From Microtetraspora sp. NBRC 16547 (lineage in GTDB: Bacteria > Actinomycetota > Actinomycetes > Streptosporangiales > Streptosporangiaceae), in the NCBI RefSeq assembly GCF_030268965.1, contig NZ_BSSE01000002.1:186001-250000 (forward strand): a stretch of DNA of 64,000 nt, in the 5' to 3' direction. The position numbers and the translations under genes are program-made. The notes beneath the pieces are model-generated. The model saw only the letters and a list, made by a program, of their open reading frames with translations. It was not told the DNA's origin and made no database searches. Below are positions 27,274 to 36,023 of this stretch, one piece after another; within the stretch, counting starts at the first letter, position 1, and every line of letters begins with the position of its first letter.

Positions 27274-27678
27274 TCAGTTGAGCGATGAGCCGGGGCAGGC
27301 GACCGGCAGGCCGAGTGCGGAGGCGGCGGCCAGCAGACGCTTGTCGTAGGTCACGAAATGATCCACGACAACCCCGAACTGCATCGCCGTCGCGAGATGG
27401 ATCGCGTCCAAGCTACGCAACATCGAATCGGAGAAGGTGGCGGCCACGCCGCGAACGGCCACGTCGATGTCGATCCTCTGGATGCCGGCAAGGACGGGAG
27501 GAACTCGATCGAGGCGCTCCGGGGCGACACGCCGTATGCTTCGTGGCACCTCGACTTCGACCAGCGCTGAGCTGAGTGGGGGATTGTCCGGTCGGCTCGT
27601 CAGCCACTCTCGCAGTGCCAGCGATTCCGGTTCGGGGTGGATCATCTTGACGATGGCGGCGCTGTCCATGTAGATCAA
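27274..27678 (-). CDS. PIN-domain toxin, VapC type
   Basis: A 134-residue PIN ribonuclease, the toxin of a VapBC pair. The acidic residues expected for metal binding are visible: D5 (IYMDSAAIV), E in LVEVEVPRS, D in RSLDAIHLATA and D in VTYDKRL. I chose the TTG at 27678, which overlaps the antitoxin stop and follows GGAGGAG; the ATG at 27669 is an alternative. Confidence 0.87.
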   Translation of the reverse strand: MIYMDSAAIVKMIHPEPESLALREWLTSRPDNPPLSSALVEVEVPRSIRRVAPERLDRVPPVLAGIQRIDIDVAVRGVAATFSDSMLRSLDAIHLATAMQFGVVVDHFVTYDKRLLAAASALGLPVACPGSSLN

Positions 27679-27959
27679 AAGCGCTCCTCCTCCCTCGTGC
27701 GGATGATGTCCTCCGCGGCGTTGACGTCGTCGTACGGTTCGGTGTCCATCTCGGCTACCACGTCGCTGAATCGGCGTGTCGCCGGGGTGGCGCGGCCTTG
27801 GGCGACCCACTCGTCGAGGATCGTCGTCGGGCCTGGGACGGGAACCAGCCGCGCGACAGTGCGACCGTCCTTGATCACCTCGATGGTCTCGCCTGCCAGG
27901 GCCTTGTCGAGGCAGTCCGCGGCGTGATCGGCGAACTCGGTGACTCCGATGCGTTCCAT
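27675..27959 (-). CDS. Phd/VapB-type antitoxin
   Basis: A short antitoxin (94 residues from the ATG at 27959, 101 from a GTG at 27980). The Phd/YefM-type N-terminus MERIGVTEFADHAADCLDKA would bind DNA, with KDGRTVARLVPVP, and the acidic C-terminus (YDDVNAAEDIIRTREEERF) would wrap the toxin. The 27959 start has GGAAG close by. The gene overlaps vapC. Confidence 0.83.
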   Translation of the reverse strand: MERIGVTEFADHAADCLDKALAGETIEVIKDGRTVARLVPVPGPTTILDEWVAQGRATPATRRFSDVVAEMDTEPYDDVNAAEDIIRTREEERF

Positions 27960-28059
27960 AGCTTCCATGATGCGTTTCACGAGGTCACCGTAGAGCCGCG
28001 CACTCCGGTTTGTGGCCGAAACGACACGATGGGTAGTCGGAATATTGCTCTGGGTGGTT

Positions 28060-28809
28060 CTAGGCGGTCGCAGCGGGCTCGGGCCGGTGGACGGCCTGCC
28101 CGTAGCGATCGAGGAGGAGCGTGACGAGTTCGGGGGCCGGGCCGAGGACGTCGGCGACCCGGTGCGCCCCGGCGGCGAGCGTGTCGCGGCGTACCTTGTC
28201 GGCGAAATGGCCGGGGGCGAGCAGGTAGGGGGCGACGACCACCCGGGACGCCCCGGCGCGCGACAGCCGTACGACCTCGTCCTGAGGGGCCGGAGCGGCG
28301 GCGGAGGCGTAGGCGGGGGTCACCGACCACGAGGAACGGTGTCGCGCCCAAGAGCGAGCCACGCGCGCCACGACCGCGTTGGCCCGGGTGTCGCTCGAAC
28401 CGGCGGAGACCAGCACGACGGCCGTGCCAGGATCGCCGATCTCCACCCCCGCCTCCGCCAGGCGGCGCTCCAGGGCGGTGACGAGCAGCGGATGCGGGCC
28501 AAGGGTCGGCCCGAGGCGGACCCGCAGTCGCGGCCGACGCGCGGACGCCTCGCGCAGGGCGGCCGGGATGTCCACCCGGCTGTGGTAGGCCGCGGTGAGC
28601 AGCAGCGGCAGCACCACGGCCTCGTCCAGCCCGGACAGGGCCCGCCCCAGCGTCGGCGGCGCGTGGTCCAGGTAGGCGGTCCGCACGTCCAGATCCGGGC
28701 GCGCGAGCCGCACCCCGTCGAGCAGCGCCTCGACCGCCGTGGCGGCGCGTGGGTCGCGTGACCCGTGTGCCACGGCGATCAGCGGCGGGCCGGTCGGATT
28801 CGTGTTCAC
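28060..28809 (-). CDS. CbiX-type sirohydrochlorin chelatase
   Basis: A 249-residue class II chelatase with two CbiX-like halves. The active-site motif AVAHGSRDPRA (H15) opens the first half, and a second APYLLAPGHFADKV the later half. It inserts metal into sirohydrochlorin, and next to sulfite reductase it most likely makes siroheme for that enzyme. It lies 178 bases after cysH on the same strand. Confidence 0.9.
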   Translation of the reverse strand: MNTNPTGPPLIAVAHGSRDPRAATAVEALLDGVRLARPDLDVRTAYLDHAPPTLGRALSGLDEAVVLPLLLTAAYHSRVDIPAALREASARRPRLRVRLGPTLGPHPLLVTALERRLAEAGVEIGDPGTAVVLVSAGSSDTRANAVVARVARSWARHRSSWSVTPAYASAAAPAPQDEVVRLSRAGASRVVVAPYLLAPGHFADKVRRDTLAAGAHRVADVLGPAPELVTLLLDRYGQAVHRPEPAATA

Positions 28810-28987: not shown

Positions 28988-29716
28988 TCACAGGTGGATG
29001 CCGCACTCGATCTTGCCGAGCCCGGCCCACCGGCCGCTGCGCGGGTCCTCGCCGGGAGCGACCCGGCGGGTGCAGGGTGCGCAGCCGATCGAGGGGTAGC
29101 CGTCGTAGTGCAGCGGGTTGATCAGCACCCCGTTGTCGGCGATGTAGTTGTCGACCTCGTCCTGGGTCCACCGCGCGATCGGGTTGATCTTGACCATCTG
29201 GCGCTTGGCGTCCCACTCGACGACCTTCGTGGTCACCCGGGTCGGCGACTCGTCGCGCCGGATGCCCGACACCCAGGCGAGGTACGGCTCGAGCGCGCGG
29301 TTGAGCGGCTCGACCTTGCGCAGGTAGCAGCACAGGTCGGGGTTACGGCCGTGCAGCCGGGGCCCGAGGTCGCGGTTTTGCTCCGCCACCGTCCGGGACG
29401 GCGTCACATCGATCACGTTGACGTCGTAGACCGCCTGGACCGCGTCCCGCGTCCCGATGGTCTCCGCGAAGTGGTAGCCGGTGTCGATGAACAGCACGTC
29501 GACGCCCGGCTTGACCCGGCTCACCAGATCGATCAGCAGCGCGTCGCTCATCGAGGAGGTGAGACAGAGGCGGTCGCCGAACGTGGCCGCCGCCCACCGG
29601 ATGATCTCGCGGGCGGGAGCGTCCTCCAGGAAGCGCGCGGCGGACTCGACGATGCTCTGCAGGTCGAGCACGCCGCGCTGGCGTTCCAGACCGGCCTCTA
29701 TCTCCACCAGGGTCAT
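28988..29716 (-). CDS. cysH: Adenylyl-sulfate (APS) reductase, thioredoxin-type
   Basis: A 242-residue enzyme that reduces activated sulfate to sulfite. The catalytic cysteine is in the C-terminal ECGIHL. A CC pair (DLCCYLRKV) and a later CAPC supply four cysteines for a [4Fe-4S] cluster, which marks the APS-type enzyme rather than the PAPS-type of enterobacteria. It is 31 bases after the small zinc-ribbon gene in the sulfur operon. ATP sulfurylase genes are not in the window. Confidence 0.94.
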   Translation of the reverse strand: MTLVEIEAGLERQRGVLDLQSIVESAARFLEDAPAREIIRWAAATFGDRLCLTSSMSDALLIDLVSRVKPGVDVLFIDTGYHFAETIGTRDAVQAVYDVNVIDVTPSRTVAEQNRDLGPRLHGRNPDLCCYLRKVEPLNRALEPYLAWVSGIRRDESPTRVTTKVVEWDAKRQMVKINPIARWTQDEVDNYIADNGVLINPLHYDGYPSIGCAPCTRRVAPGEDPRSGRWAGLGKIECGIHL

Positions 29717-29939: not shown

Positions 29940-31619
29940 TCACGTGAGGTCCGCCTCGTTGGCGCGGTGGACCCACTCGGAGAACGTCTCGCCGTCGTTC
30001 TTCTGCTTCTCGAAGTTCCGTACGACGCGCTCGACGTAGTCGGGGAGTTCCTCGGCGGTGGCCTTCAGGCCGCGGACTTTGCGGCCGAAGTTCGGGTTGA
30101 CACCGATCGAGCCGCCGAGGTGGACCTGGAAGCCCTCGACCTGCTCGCCCCTGTCGTTCACGACGAGCTGCCCCTTGAGGCCGATGTCGGCCACCTGGAT
30201 GCGGGCGCAGGAGTTCGGGCAGCCGTTGACGTTGATCGTGAGCGGCTCGGCGAAGTCGGGCAGCCGGGTCTCCAGCTCGTCGATCAGCTTCGCCGCGGTG
30301 GCCTTGGTCTCGACGATGGCGAGCTTGCAGTACTCGATGCCGGTGCAGGCCATGGTCTGGCGGCGGAACGTCGACGGGGTGACGCGGAGGTCGGCGGCCT
30401 CCAGCTCGGCGACGATCGAGTCCACCTGGTCGGGGGCCACGTCCAGGACGACCATCTTCTGCTCGACCGTGGTGCGGACCCGGCGGGAGCCGTGCCGCTC
30501 GGCGATGTCGGCGATCTCGCGTAGCTTGTCGCCGTTGACCCGGCCGACCTTGGGCGCGAACCCGACGTAGAAGTTGCCGTCCTTCTGGGGGAAGACGCCG
30601 ACGTGGTCGCGGCGTCCGCCGCGCGGCTCCTCGGGGGCGGGCCCGTCGGGCAGCCGGTAGCCGAGGTACTCGGTCTCCAGGATCTCGCGGAACTTCTCCG
30701 CGCCCCAGTCGTTGATCAGGAACTTGATCCTGGCCCGGTGGCGCAGCCGGCGGTAGCCGTAGTCGCGGAAGATGCCGCAGACGCCGGCCCATACCTCGTG
30801 CACCCGCTCCGGCCGGACGAACGCGCCGAGCCGCTTGGCGAACATCGGGTTGGTGGACAGGCCGCCGCCGACCCAGACGTCGAAGCCCTGCTCGCCCTCG
30901 TGGGTCACGCCGACGAACGCGATGTCGTTGATCTCGTGCACGGTGCAGTGGGCGGAGCAGCCGCTGATGGCGGTCTTGAACTTGCGCGGCAGGTTGGAGA
31001 ACGCCTTGTCGCCGACGTACCGGCTGGTGATCTCGGCGATCTGGGCGGTGCCGTCGATCACCTCGTCGGCGTCGATCCCGGCGAGCGGGCAGCCCAGGAT
31101 GACGCGCGGGGTGTCGCCGCACGCCTCGGTGGTGGACAGGCCGACGGCCTCCAGACGGTTCCAGATGTCCGGCACCGACTCGATCTCGATCCAGTGGAGC
31201 TGGATGTTCTGCCGGTCGGTGATGTCGGCCGTGCCCCTGGCGTACTCGTTGGAGATGTCGGCGATGACGCGGAGCTGCTCCAGGTCGAGCTGGCCGCCGT
31301 CGACGCGCACACGGAGCATGAAGTAGCGGTCGTCGAGCTCCTCCGGCTCCAGGATCGCGGTCTTGCCGCCGTCGATCCCGGGCTTGCGCTGGGTGTACAG
31401 CCCGTACCAGCGCATCCGGCCGCGCAGGTCGGCCGGGTCGATCGAGTCGAACCCGTGTTTGGAGTAGATGTCGATGATCCGCTGACGGACGTTGAGCCCG
31501 TCGTCGGCCTTCTTGTTCTCCTCGTTCTTGTTCAGCGGCTCACGGTAACCGAGAGCCCACTGGCCTTCGCCGCGCGGGCGCTTGTGGTGGCGGTTCGCCG
31601 GGCGGGCCGGGGTGCTCAT
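29940..31619 (-). CDS. sir: Ferredoxin-type sulfite (nitrite/sulfite) reductase
   Basis: A 559-residue siroheme/[4Fe-4S] reductase that makes sulfide from sulfite. The cluster/siroheme cysteines lie in ACTGIEYCKL and GCPNSCARIQ (C-x5-C ... C-x3-C), with the earlier SGCSAHCTVHE typical of the family. Context with cysH and a cysteine leader peptide fixes sulfite rather than nitrite as substrate. The ATG has TTAAGG as ribosome site, part of an upstream hairpin. Confidence 0.94.
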   Translation of the reverse strand: MSTPARPANRHHKRPRGEGQWALGYREPLNKNEENKKADDGLNVRQRIIDIYSKHGFDSIDPADLRGRMRWYGLYTQRKPGIDGGKTAILEPEELDDRYFMLRVRVDGGQLDLEQLRVIADISNEYARGTADITDRQNIQLHWIEIESVPDIWNRLEAVGLSTTEACGDTPRVILGCPLAGIDADEVIDGTAQIAEITSRYVGDKAFSNLPRKFKTAISGCSAHCTVHEINDIAFVGVTHEGEQGFDVWVGGGLSTNPMFAKRLGAFVRPERVHEVWAGVCGIFRDYGYRRLRHRARIKFLINDWGAEKFREILETEYLGYRLPDGPAPEEPRGGRRDHVGVFPQKDGNFYVGFAPKVGRVNGDKLREIADIAERHGSRRVRTTVEQKMVVLDVAPDQVDSIVAELEAADLRVTPSTFRRQTMACTGIEYCKLAIVETKATAAKLIDELETRLPDFAEPLTINVNGCPNSCARIQVADIGLKGQLVVNDRGEQVEGFQVHLGGSIGVNPNFGRKVRGLKATAEELPDYVERVVRNFEKQKNDGETFSEWVHRANEADLT

Positions 31620-31625
31620 GAGGGC

Positions 31626-31665
31626 GTCCTTAATCCGAAGGATCCGACTGCGGATCCTTAAGGTC
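31626..31665 (-). promoter_or_regulatory. Attenuator/SD-covering hairpin before sulfite reductase
   Basis: AAGGATCCG and CGGATCCTT (31638-31646 and 31651-31659 on the plus strand) form a 9-pair stem with a 4-base loop. Read on the coding strand, CCTT just 5' of the stem can also pair with AAGG of the sir ribosome site (31626-31633). The structure lies between the cysteine leader peptide and sir. Confidence 0.65.
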
Positions 31666-31823
31666 GAAAACCAGGTCGAAAACCAGGTGGAAGGTCACAG
31701 AAGTGACCTCGAACGCGTGCCTCAGGCGGTCCCGCCTCATCGTCGAGTACGGGGAGCGAACACGGAAAAACACGAAAAAGACGCCTGATCACGCGCCCAA
31801 TGTCAGAAGCAGACGGGCGACGG

Positions 31824-31907
31824 TCAACGGGCGTCGATACAGATGGCGCTGCGGACGCGCAGAAGGTCGACGTGGCGTCGCACGACGAGCAACGGGTCCG
31901 CTGGCAT
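31824..31907 (-). CDS. Cysteine-responsive leader peptide (27 residues)
   Basis: A 27-residue ORF whose core RRHVDLLRVRSAIC matches the actinobacterial family of short leader peptides found upstream of sulfur and cysteine genes. One cysteine codon lies near the end (residue 23). It starts 288 bases upstream of sir on the same strand. Ribosome stalling at the cysteine codon when cysteine is scarce would alter folding of the downstream RNA. It begins directly at a promoter, so its message is leaderless. Confidence 0.85.
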   Translation of the reverse strand: MPADPLLVVRRHVDLLRVRSAICIDAR

Positions 31908-31943
31908 GTCCCAGACGATACCCGGGGCGTCCTTGATGTCCAA
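31908..31943 (-). promoter_or_regulatory. Promoter of the sulfur operon leader
   Basis: On the minus strand TTGGAC (31943-31938), a 17-base spacer and TATCGT (31920-31915) are followed by seven bases and the ATG of the leader peptide. The fit to a vegetative promoter with a leaderless transcript is very good. Confidence 0.75.
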
Positions 31944-32019
31944 GTTCGGTTTCACGATGTGGACGTCGCTGTGCATGTCGATGCGAGCGTCCATGTGGAC
32001 GTCGACGCGGACGGCGCGG

Positions 32020-32154
32020 TCAGCCCTGACTGATCCAGTTCTGCGCCGGCTCCGTCCGGGTGGCCTCTTCGGCCGGTTCGTGGTGCTGGCAGTCGCACCA
32101 CGAACCGCCGCGGCACTCGTCGTGCCGCCGGTTCTTGCAGGCGTCGCAGATCAT
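32020..32154 (-). CDS. Small cysteine/histidine-rich protein (44 residues)
   Basis: A 44-residue protein beginning MICDACKNRRHDECRGG and continuing SWCDCQHHEPAEE. Five cysteines and four histidines in the first half suggest a small metal-binding knuckle. It is divergent from the DinB-like gene (60-base gap) and upstream of the sulfur operon on the same strand. I recall similar short sequences in other actinomycetes; function unknown. Confidence 0.65.
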   Translation of the reverse strand: MICDACKNRRHDECRGGSWCDCQHHEPAEEATRTEPAQNWISQG

Positions 32155-34520: not shown

Positions 34521-34640
34521 GGGACGACGTCGGGACGGCGAAGCGGGTCGCCCGGCGCGTACGCCTCCAGGCCGGGGCGTTCCGTGACGTTCCGGGTCTC
34601 GCGGGCGTGAGCCGTACCCGAGGCTCAGATAGGGTGGAGA

Positions 34641-34730
34641 CGTCGCGACTGGCGCTGACGTGCCCTCGGGCACGTGCTAGGTGGGGCACCACTGGGAAGC
34701 GAACGTGCGGAGGCCGTGCGCCTGGGTCAC
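34641..34730 (+). ncRNA. ZTP (pfl) riboswitch upstream of glyA
   Basis: Three blocks match the pfl consensus in order: CGCGACTGGCG (34644-34654), GTGGGGCACCACTGGGAAGCGA (34681-34702, conserved core CCACNGGGAAGCGA) and GCGCCTGGGTCA (34718-34729). A CGTGCCC/GGGCACG hairpin lies between blocks one and two. These RNAs bind ZTP/ZMP, signals of 10-formyl-folate shortage, and switch on one-carbon genes. It ends 34 bases before glyA. Confidence 0.87.
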
Positions 34731-34763
34731 CGCGGCTGTCGATGTTGACAAGGAAAGGCGCCA

Positions 34764-36023
34764 ATGGCTGAGAACTCGCTGAACGTCGTCGATCCCGAGA
34801 TCGCCGAGCTGATCAAGGCGGAGGAGCGGCGGCAGGCCGACACCGTCAAGCTCATCGCCTCGGAGAACTACGTCTCCAGGGCCGTGCTGGAGGCCACCGG
34901 GACCGTTCTGACGAACAAGTACTCCGAGGGCTACCCCGGCAAGCGGTACTACGAGGGCCAGCAGGTCATCGACCAGATCGAGACCATCGCGATCGAGCGG
35001 GCCAAGTCGGTGTTCGGCGTGAACCACGCCAACGTCCAGCCGTACTCCGGCTCCCCGGCCAACCTCGCGATCTACATGGCGTTCCTGAAGCCCGGCGACA
35101 CCGTCCTCGGCATGGGCCTGCCGTTCGGCGGGCACCTCACGCACGGCTGGTCGGTCTCCGCGACCGGCAAGTGGTTCAACCCCGTCCGGTACGGCGTGCG
35201 CAAGGACAACGGCCGCATCGACATGGACGAGGTCCGCGCCCTCGCGCTGGAGCACCGGCCCAAGCTGATCTTCTGCGGCGGCACCGCGATCCCGCGCACC
35301 ATCGACTTCCCGGCGTTCGCCGAGATCGCCCGTGAGGTGGACGCGGTCCTCGCCGCCGACATCGCGCACATCGCCGGTCTCGTCGCCGGCGGCGCCCACC
35401 CGTCGCCGGTCGGGTACGCCGACGTGATCTCCACGACCACGCACAAGACCCTGCGCGGCCCGCGCGGCGCCATGCTGATGGCCACCTCCGACGAGCACGC
35501 GACGGCCCTGAACAAGGCGGTCTTCCCGGGTCTGCAGGGCGGTCCGCACAACCACACGACCGCCGCCATCGCCGTCGCCCTGCGCGAGGCGTCCCAGCCG
35601 GAGTTCAGGGCGTACGCCGCGCAGGTCGTGAAGAACGCCAAGGCGCTCGCCGAGGAGCTGTCCTCGCGGGGCTTCGACCTGGTGTCCGGCGGCACCGACA
35701 ACCACCTCATCCTGATGGACCTGACCCCGAAGGGCGTCGGCGGCAAGCCCGCCGCCCAGGCGCTCGACCGGGCGGGTCTGGAGACGAACTACAACACCGT
35801 CCCGTTCGACACGCGGAAGCCGTTCGACCCGTCGGGCATCCGCATCGGCACCCCCTCGGTCACCTCGCGCGGCATGGGCGAGGCGGAGATGCGCCAGATC
35901 GGCGCCTGGATCGACGAGGTCGTCACCGCGGTGGCCAAGGGCGACGCCGAGGACGTGATCGCTCGCGTTCACGGCGAGGTCAGCGAGCTGACGGCCAAGT
36001 TCCCGGCGCCCGGACTTTCCTGA
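34764..36023 (+). CDS. glyA: Serine hydroxymethyltransferase
   Basis: A 419-residue PLP enzyme that interconverts serine and glycine and loads one-carbon units on tetrahydrofolate. The Schiff-base lysine is K228 in STTTHKTLRGPRG; IASENYVSR and the NKYSEGYPGKRYYEG block are intact. An AAGGAAAGG ribosome site precedes the ATG. The ZTP riboswitch upstream ties expression to folate and purine status. A long hairpin terminates it. Confidence 0.97.
   Translation: MAENSLNVVDPEIAELIKAEERRQADTVKLIASENYVSRAVLEATGTVLTNKYSEGYPGKRYYEGQQVIDQIETIAIERAKSVFGVNHANVQPYSGSPANLAIYMAFLKPGDTVLGMGLPFGGHLTHGWSVSATGKWFNPVRYGVRKDNGRIDMDEVRALALEHRPKLIFCGGTAIPRTIDFPAFAEIAREVDAVLAADIAHIAGLVAGGAHPSPVGYADVISTTTHKTLRGPRGAMLMATSDEHATALNKAVFPGLQGGPHNHTTAAIAVALREASQPEFRAYAAQVVKNAKALAEELSSRGFDLVSGGTDNHLILMDLTPKGVGGKPAAQALDRAGLETNYNTVPFDTRKPFDPSGIRIGTPSVTSRGMGEAEMRQIGAWIDEVVTAVAKGDAEDVIARVHGEVSELTAKFPAPGLS

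Follow-up and report, generated by a model that had tools for sequence, protein, structure and literature searches.

How could a cell set the expression of its sulfite reductase operon by cysteine, starting from a leader peptide whose conserved core ends on one cysteine codon? The leader of sir in Microtetraspora sp. NBRC 16547 raises this question. It lies in the 64,000-nucleotide stretch analysed here (the window; positions 186,001 to 250,000 of contig NZ_BSSE01000002.1), for which the closest named record among the matches listed is Microtetraspora malaysiensis, with a Sir protein 93% identical. Our answer, to which we give a probability of roughly two in three on the basis of sequence comparison and modelling, is a ribosome-mediated cysteine attenuator for this operon, in which three RNA helices, P1, P2 and P3, would act as a relay. 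Comparative sequence supports the leader, its cysteine codon TGT and P1, while cysteine as the signal, masking by the ribosome, termination and the direction of control are what we infer. The anatomy is unusually clear; the function is predicted. The leader and the gene behind it consist of the following parts.

31915..31943, minus strand: promoter TTGGAC (31943-31938), 17-base spacer, TATCGT (31920-31915), ending 7 bases before the ATG at 31907
31907..31824, minus strand: leader open reading frame (ORF) MPADPLLVVRRHVDLLRVRSAICIDAR*, 27 codons and a stop
31839..31841, minus strand: candidate sensing cysteine codon TGT, by its conserved codon choice
29940..31619, minus strand: sir, nitrite/sulfite reductase family (PF01077 and PF03460)

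The leader is not peculiar to this genome: a peptide search matched at E<=0.1 in 192 of 200 family genomes. Loci were taken from 148 of the 192, the better matches (L001, L019-L165), and removal of near-duplicates left 114 sequences in three groups, which probably correspond to the Streptosporangiaceae in the narrow sense (group 1, n=60), Actinomadura and relatives (group 2, n=31) and Nocardiopsis and relatives (group 3, n=23). The peptide scores 30.8 bits against NCBIfam NF042934, 'putative leader peptide' (cut-off 27; profile positions 1-19 of 19), and sir lies directly downstream of it in all 148 loci. The same order returned in loci reached through the Sir protein, of which 80 named ones were kept of 552, 43 repeating earlier sequences and 37 new (the held-out loci): the leader stands upstream of sir in 80 of 80. 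A first-pass annotation had placed the promoter, TTGGAC-17-TATCGT, seven bases before a 27-codon ORF. It is present there, and among 88 close relatives (near-duplicates included, here and for the 9-pair hairpin below) 84 keep boxes of the form TTGG[AC] and TA[TC]NNT, 17 bases apart in 83 and 18 in one, at 6 or 7 bases from the ATG in every case. Between 31500 and 32100, one promoter-like site was found against 0.1 expected; leader peptide and promoter are, judged from sequence, both beyond chance. Since the boxes are kept 6-7 bases before the ATG, a leaderless start is predicted, with an mRNA that probably begins at or next to the leader ATG. At this level, conservation lends good support to what the annotation had proposed, a cysteine attenuator ahead of sir whose leader peptide is leaderless.

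Which codon would do the sensing? All 148 leaders close the core with TGT as the cysteine codon, and so do 37 of 37 held-out loci, against 29 TGT among the 520 cysteine codons of the sir stretches in 110 loci. A single tRNA serves both cysteine codons, which would make TGT the slower of the two. The single late cysteine codon described earlier holds for the window and not for leaders generally: one cysteine is found in 65 of the 114 non-redundant leaders, two in 45 and three in 4.

Immediately past this codon begins the hairpin P1, made up of these elements.

31830..31835, minus strand: P1 5' arm GACGCC, within the leader ORF, 3 bases past the cysteine codon
31815..31819, minus strand: P1 inner 5' arm CGCCC, pairing with GGGCG
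31790..31798, minus strand: segment 1, GGGCGCGTG, either the P1 inner 3' arm (GGGCG) or the P2 5' arm
31780..31785, minus strand: P1 3' arm GGCGTC, its GGCG shared with P2
31775..31779, minus strand: T-run, candidate terminator tail adjoining the P1 3' arm; joined to GGCGTC, it also complements the sir ribosome site

P1 begins 0-6 bases past the cysteine codon, and in group 1 its outer arms are mostly GACGCC/GGCGTC and its inner arms CGCCC/GGGCG. We searched each sequence for the strongest helix starting 2-9 bases from the codon's first base, in some sequences a pairing other than P1, and set it against dinucleotide shuffles. Over the 114 sequences the best helix at this position averages -12.2 kcal/mol, compared with -6.6 in shuffles; it beats the shuffle mean in 112 and reaches p<=0.05 in 56. 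For the held-out loci the corresponding numbers are 36 and 27 of 37. A position profile of 6-base arms followed by T-runs places the starts 6-8 bases from the codon's first base (37, 12 and 15 of 114), with a second peak at -38 (35 of 114), where the RRH codons contain GACGCC once more. Here the first arginine of RRHVDL (window 31880-31878, minus strand) is the rare codon CGA in 57 of 60 group-1, 0 of 31 group-2 and 3 of 23 group-3 sequences, compared with a CGA share of 1.0% among the arginine codons of sir. Together with the CGC that follows, CGA makes up this second GACGCC, 38 bases 5' of the cysteine codon and complementary to the P1 3' arm.

Pairing was then counted in alignments: A1 (71 of the 88 sequences, group 1), A4 (50 of 60 group-1 sequences, leaving out L087-L090 and L100-L105, mainly Nonomuraea-type), A3 and A5 (the same 20 of 31 group-2 sequences; A3 left out L106, L112, L116, L118, L119, L122-L124, L135, L140 and L162) and A2 (23 of 23 in group 3). 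P1, P2 and P3 were defined by eye from the sequences and counted afterwards, the counts testing pre-chosen structures, and the shuffle controls leave kinship among the sequences in place. With that scope, 96.3%, 92.1% and 85.1% of P1 cells are paired in groups 1 (50 of 60 sequences), 2 (20 of 31) and 3 (23 of 23), and 90.2% in A1; with the partner slid by 1-3 columns the value is at most 64.3%. Both bases have changed in 3 cells of group 1, 2 of group 2 and 7 of group 3, counts attained by 3, 8 and 2 of 500 shuffles, and the number of pair types in group 3 lies below every shuffle. The larger part of the P1 evidence lies in arm differences between lineages, which carry GACGCC:GGCGTC, GTGACGCC:GGCGTCAC, TGCGACGC:GCGTCGCA, AACGTCGG:CCGACGTT, AGCGTCGG:CCGGCGCT or GCAACATCGGT:GCCGATGTTGC. 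A further line of evidence comes from 25 of the 148 leaders, in which the frame stops at the second codon past the cysteine: 22 of them retain GACG and the remaining 3 have TAACG, bases that are read differently from the remaining leaders and are kept nonetheless.

RNAalifold, run on the whole leader (A1), gave an ORF-internal helix and part of the P2 inner hairpin and did not return P1. The ORF-internal helix joins A1 columns 7-12/52-57 (GCGGAC:GTCCGC) and 22-25/39-42 (GTCG:CGAC), paired in 70 or 71 of 71 sequences with zero double changes. Rfam had no match in 31400-32100 up to E 5 and none at gathering in 7 loci.

Is P1 also a terminator? In group 1 the arm pattern is present in 50 of 60 sequences (absent from L087-L090 and L100-L105). 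The 8 bases that follow it include 4 or more T in 42 of the 50, with a mean of 4.84 against 1.47 expected. The window itself reads GGCGTC-TTTTT, and its P1 piece folds at -24.6 kcal/mol. The T-run following the arm in 42 of 60 makes P1 a candidate intrinsic terminator for much of group 1. Of the held-out loci, 8 of 37 have a T-run of 4 in 8 after the helix.

Two further helices would connect P1 to the start of sir.

31723..31787, minus strand: P2 outer stem CAGGCG/CGCCTG around the inner hairpin CCCGT-CTC/GAG-GCGGG, by paired-column counts
31711..31719, minus strand: segment 2, CACGCGTTC, either the P2 3' arm or the P3 5' arm
31624..31631, minus strand: sir ribosome site AAGGACGC, whose GGACGC can pair with segment 2 (P3)

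P1 and P2 are mutually exclusive, having GGGCG and GGCG in common, and both are conserved in group 1. There the whole of P2 (GGGCGCGTG:CACGCGTCC, CAGGCG:CGCCTG and the inner hairpin) is 85.5% paired, with 48 double-change cells against 13.9 in shuffles; its switching helices alone are 83.4% paired, with 16 against 7.6 (1 of 500 shuffles as high), and segment 1:segment 2 alone is 89.0% paired, with 8 against 2.8 (2 of 500). Slid by -2, segment 1:segment 2 still pairs at 78.8% because of GCGC repeats. The counterpart in group 2 has up to 19 pairs and is 88.3% paired, compared with at most 49.7% when slid. A search for P2-like helices against shuffles gave p 4e-8 in group 1 (55 of 60 sequences used) and p 1e-6 in group 2. 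P3, between segment 2 and the sir ribosome site, is 84.7% paired in group 1 with 3 double-change cells against 0.2, and one of its six pairs fails in 31 of 70; in group 2 it is 87.6% paired, with double changes that are not significant. In a free search, the partner found for the ribosome site exceeded the shuffle mean in strength for 56 of 60 group-1 sequences, and group 3 gave a weak signal (p 0.015). Comparative sequence supports P2 in two of the three lineages and a complement to the ribosome site in the window's lineage, both less strongly than P1. An early idea had the LRVR codons (GCGCGTCC) pairing with segment 1 or with the ribosome site; P1 fits better.

Put together, these parts suggest the following course. 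Transcription would yield a leaderless mRNA with its 5' end on or beside the leader ATG. With Cys-tRNA in short supply, the ribosome would wait with TGT in its A site, and its leading edge would, in the model, cover GACGCC, the P1 5' arm. The free 3' half of P1 could then pair with segment 2 to form P2, which would remove the P1 hairpin ahead of the T-run and at the same time hold segment 2 off the ribosome site; the transcript would pass the T-run, the ribosome site would be free, and sir would be both transcribed and translated. Under ample cysteine, the ribosome would pass, terminate and leave, allowing P1 to form. In the window's lineage P1 could then act as an intrinsic terminator, and segment 2 would be free to pair with the ribosome site as P3, keeping sir low.

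Folding calculations with a masked ribosome footprint (reaching from 18 bases upstream to 12 downstream of the A-site codon's first base) are in line with the first half of this course. The mean P1 probability in 48 of the 60 group-1 sequences is 0.82 on free RNA, 0.87 with the A site two codons before the cysteine codon, 0.21 one codon before it and 0.00 from the cysteine codon onward; in the window it is 0.98 free and 0.00 with the ribosome at the cysteine codon. As to the second half, opening the ribosome site costs a mean of 5.2 kcal/mol with P1 forced against 3.1 with P2 forced (60 of 71 sequences), being harder with P1 in 44 of the 60, easier in 7 and alike in 9; P1-forced ensembles are more stable than P2-forced ones in 56 of 60. 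With the ORF left out, masking lowers the opening cost in the window from 5.2 to 1.7.

A number of results nevertheless weigh against this relay. The proposal is weakened because most P2 double changes in group 1 (32 of 48) fall in the inner hairpin, which competes with neither P1 nor P3. In group 2 the double changes of P2 stay within the shuffle range (58 of 500 reach them), and in group 3 P2-like helices do not stand out from shuffles (p 0.13). In some group-1 sequences the ribosome site pairs best with segment 2, in others with GGCGTC plus the T-run, which would blur the sign of control, and in group 2 the partner search did not rise above shuffles (p 0.68). Ribosomes early in the ORF also reduce P1 (mean 0.43 at -51; 0.04 in the window at -48), and a ribosome at the leader stop codon masks it likewise; the switch would therefore have to rest on dwell time. 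In whole-leader equilibrium folds with a ribosome at the cysteine codon, the site became easier to open in 38 and harder in 27 of 88 sequences and was unchanged in the window; having shown no clear effect, this kind of folding was abandoned as a way to test the switch. When the ORF is left out, masking shifts the mean opening cost slightly (5.01 to 4.66, p 0.02), and in the wrong direction in L020 and L021. The T-run is rare after the arm in group 2 (1 of 17, the arm itself being found in 17 of 20) and in group 3 (3 of 23), and absent from 12 of 13 held-out Nonomuraea loci; by this measure P1 is not a candidate terminator in most of groups 2 and 3, nor in those 12 loci. Finally, among five sir leaders from outside the family (L170, L190, L192, L193, L195), a P1-like helix rises above shuffles in L190 alone. 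The output step is the weakest part of the reading that we favour.

But could the output simply differ from lineage to lineage? A modular attenuator would keep the sensor fixed, a rare TGT whose stalled ribosome covers the P1 5' arm, even as the arms themselves were rewritten in several lineages, and would exchange what follows it: terminator and ribosome-site control in many Streptosporangium-like genera, translation alone in the relatives of Nonomuraea, Actinomadura and Nocardiopsis. Such an exchange would resemble riboswitches that swap their expression platforms. We put it forward tentatively, at somewhat below even odds.

A purely translational attenuator, in which P1 and P2 govern access to the ribosome site and the T-run is the tail of an anti-ribosome-site element (GGCGTCYTTT with AAGGACGCC), strikes us as unlikely, though far from negligible. 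It would follow the mycobacterial case, where attenuation reportedly acts through the ribosome site. It is favoured by groups 2 and 3, which mostly keep P1 without a T-run of 4 in 8, as do the 12 Nonomuraea loci, and by the pairs of GGCGTCYTTT:AAGGACGCC type, than which some group-1 ribosome sites have no better partner; against it stand the 42 group-1 T-runs, among them that of L077, whose ribosome site AAGGTCC mismatches the T-run. Other NF042934 leaders bear on it too. A P1-like helix was sought in 31 of them; it reached p<=0.05 in five (L167, L176, L181, L182, L190), and in the other 26 no helix after the cysteine codon rose above shuffles. In L176, L181, L182 and L190 the bases after the cysteine codon are complementary to an AGGA-containing stretch, by eye the ribosome site, so that the arm behind the codon would pair directly with it; this looks like a simpler form of the same idea.

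Rho-dependent termination is improbable in our view. Untranslated RNA past the leader stop would load Rho unless a stalled ribosome or P2 prevented it, a scheme proposed for actinobacterial cys leaders that lack terminators (PMC1262725, in the part of the paper accessible to us) and compatible with groups 2 and 3, mostly without a T-run; the compensated P1 right after the cysteine codon and the T-run of group 1 would be left unexplained. More improbable still is an arrest peptide, in which nascent RRHVDLxRVRSAxC would stall the ribosome on a metabolite and the cysteine codon would be incidental: the peptide core is indeed nearly fixed while the residues following the cysteine vary, yet the codon is the rare synonym TGT in 148 of 148, and other family members alter the core and gain cysteine codons.

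The least credible candidate is the element on which the first-pass annotation had centred.

31638..31659, minus strand: 9-pair hairpin AAGGATCCG/CGGATCCTT, with CCTT before and AAGG after it

The hairpin is present as described, with a CCTT able to face the AAGG of the ribosome site; as a conserved switch it falls away because AAGGATCCG occurs within 80 bases of sir in one of the 88 close relatives, the window itself. Counting every hairpin of at least 8 pairs within that distance, whatever its sequence, gives 4 of 88: L001 and three that differ from it in sequence, L020, L021 and L022. The comparison of relatives thus kept the leader peptide before sir and lost this hairpin, and the conserved stems expected upstream of sir turned out to be the hairpin after the cysteine codon, a competing helix and a ribosome-site complement. 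Tandem copies of ACCTGGTTTTCG (window 31688-31661, minus strand), together with the 9-pair hairpin, lengthen the window's leader relative to its relatives: leader stop to sir start spans 204 bases here against 172-181 in L019-L022, and the leader ORF begins 288 bases 5' of the sir ATG.

What does the leader stand in front of? Sir reaches no NCBIfam model at its cut-off, the top one being ferredoxin--nitrite reductase with 409 of 594 bits; we label it sulfite reductase because two further genes come after it.

28988..29716, minus strand: cysH-type APS/PAPS reductase, downstream of sir (NF002537, 262 bits, cut-off 154)
28060..28809, minus strand: CbiX-type chelatase, downstream of sir and cysH (PF01903, 121 bits, cut-off 22)

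Elsewhere in the window, two small overlapping ORFs at 27274-27980 (minus strand) presumably encode a Phd-type antitoxin and a PIN-domain toxin, and a ZMP/ZTP riboswitch (RF01750, 40.6 bits, gathering 39) at 34638-34734 (plus strand) lies shortly 5' of an ORF at 34764 that we take to be a serine hydroxymethyltransferase. The same genome holds other leaders of this kind. NF042934, which matches in 110 of the 148 class genomes searched and passes the cut-off in 96, also finds TELLTKRRAVDFCRVATALCRMA over its cut-off at G000:C1:586728-586781 (minus strand; locus L005, 1501-1554, minus strand), followed by ORFs that presumably encode a membrane protein of DUF4395 type and a sulfurtransferase. At the stop codon of this leader there is a CCTGA that, by eye, complements the TCAGG at the ribosome site of the following gene; a P1-like helix was searched for at this leader and none was found. 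A third leader-like peptide, NILFARLHVDLCRLAAGLCRTKRYQRS (G000:C12:103968-104018, minus strand; locus L007), scores 25.1 bits, below the cut-off, and precedes an ORF that we assume to encode a 2-oxoacid:ferredoxin oxidoreductase subunit.

If the proposal is true, it provides a base-pair map of how one branch of a widespread actinobacterial leader family can work from one core cysteine codon, and the direction of control, the codon choice and the ribosome footprint become testable by a few point changes. It would also mean that a translated sensor can remain constant as its RNA output changes. Among the papers listed in a search largely without subscription journals and preprints, none gave an account of this switch in Streptosporangiales, and the accessible portions of PMC2965389 and PMC11133741 hold no description of it. 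In the available text of PMC8079986, eight leader peptides of S. lividans are reported, none assigned to cysteine. Leaderless cysteine attenuation is known in general; this RNA wiring was not found in the literature searched.

Finally, we would place this leader among the attenuators already described. Classical attenuators of the trp, his and ilv type have a leader peptide containing the regulated amino acid and mutually exclusive hairpins. The sir leader is like them in its leader peptide, its exclusive hairpins and, in much of group 1, its T-run. Unlike in these systems, what the stalled ribosome would cover is the terminator-like hairpin's own 5' arm, which lies inside the leader ORF. The output may also be translational, and the T-run is rare in sister lineages. 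NCBIfam files NF042934 as cis_reg_atten, and the peptide passes its curated cut-off; the model covers 19 peptide positions and describes no RNA switch. Closer to this lineage, Seliverstov et al. 2005 (PMC1262725, as far as accessible) described candidate cys leaders with runs of cysteine codons in Actinobacteria, those of Mycobacterium without a conserved hairpin capable of termination. The sir leader likewise puts a peptide with a cysteine codon before cys genes; unlike those leaders, it has a compensated hairpin after one core cysteine codon. Cysteine-rich leaderless upstream ORFs were proposed in mycobacteria (PMC4633059, accessible part), and cysteine-responsive leaderless attenuators in M. 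smegmatis are attributed to Canestrari et al. 2020 in the accessible passages of the citing papers PMC9031893, PMC9094748 and PMC13236596. With the mycobacterial polycysteine attenuators the sir leader would share the leaderless short ORF before cysteine genes, its leaderless start being predicted, a downstream translation set by the speed of the ribosome at a cysteine codon, and the place before sulfur genes (sir in 148 of 148; cysH and CbiX in the window). Those systems have a contiguous run of cysteine codons, whereas here one core codon, TGT in every leader examined, would carry the signal. What would go beyond the mycobacterial system is the hairpin relay of P1, P2 and P3, together with the candidate intrinsic terminator present across much of the window's lineage.

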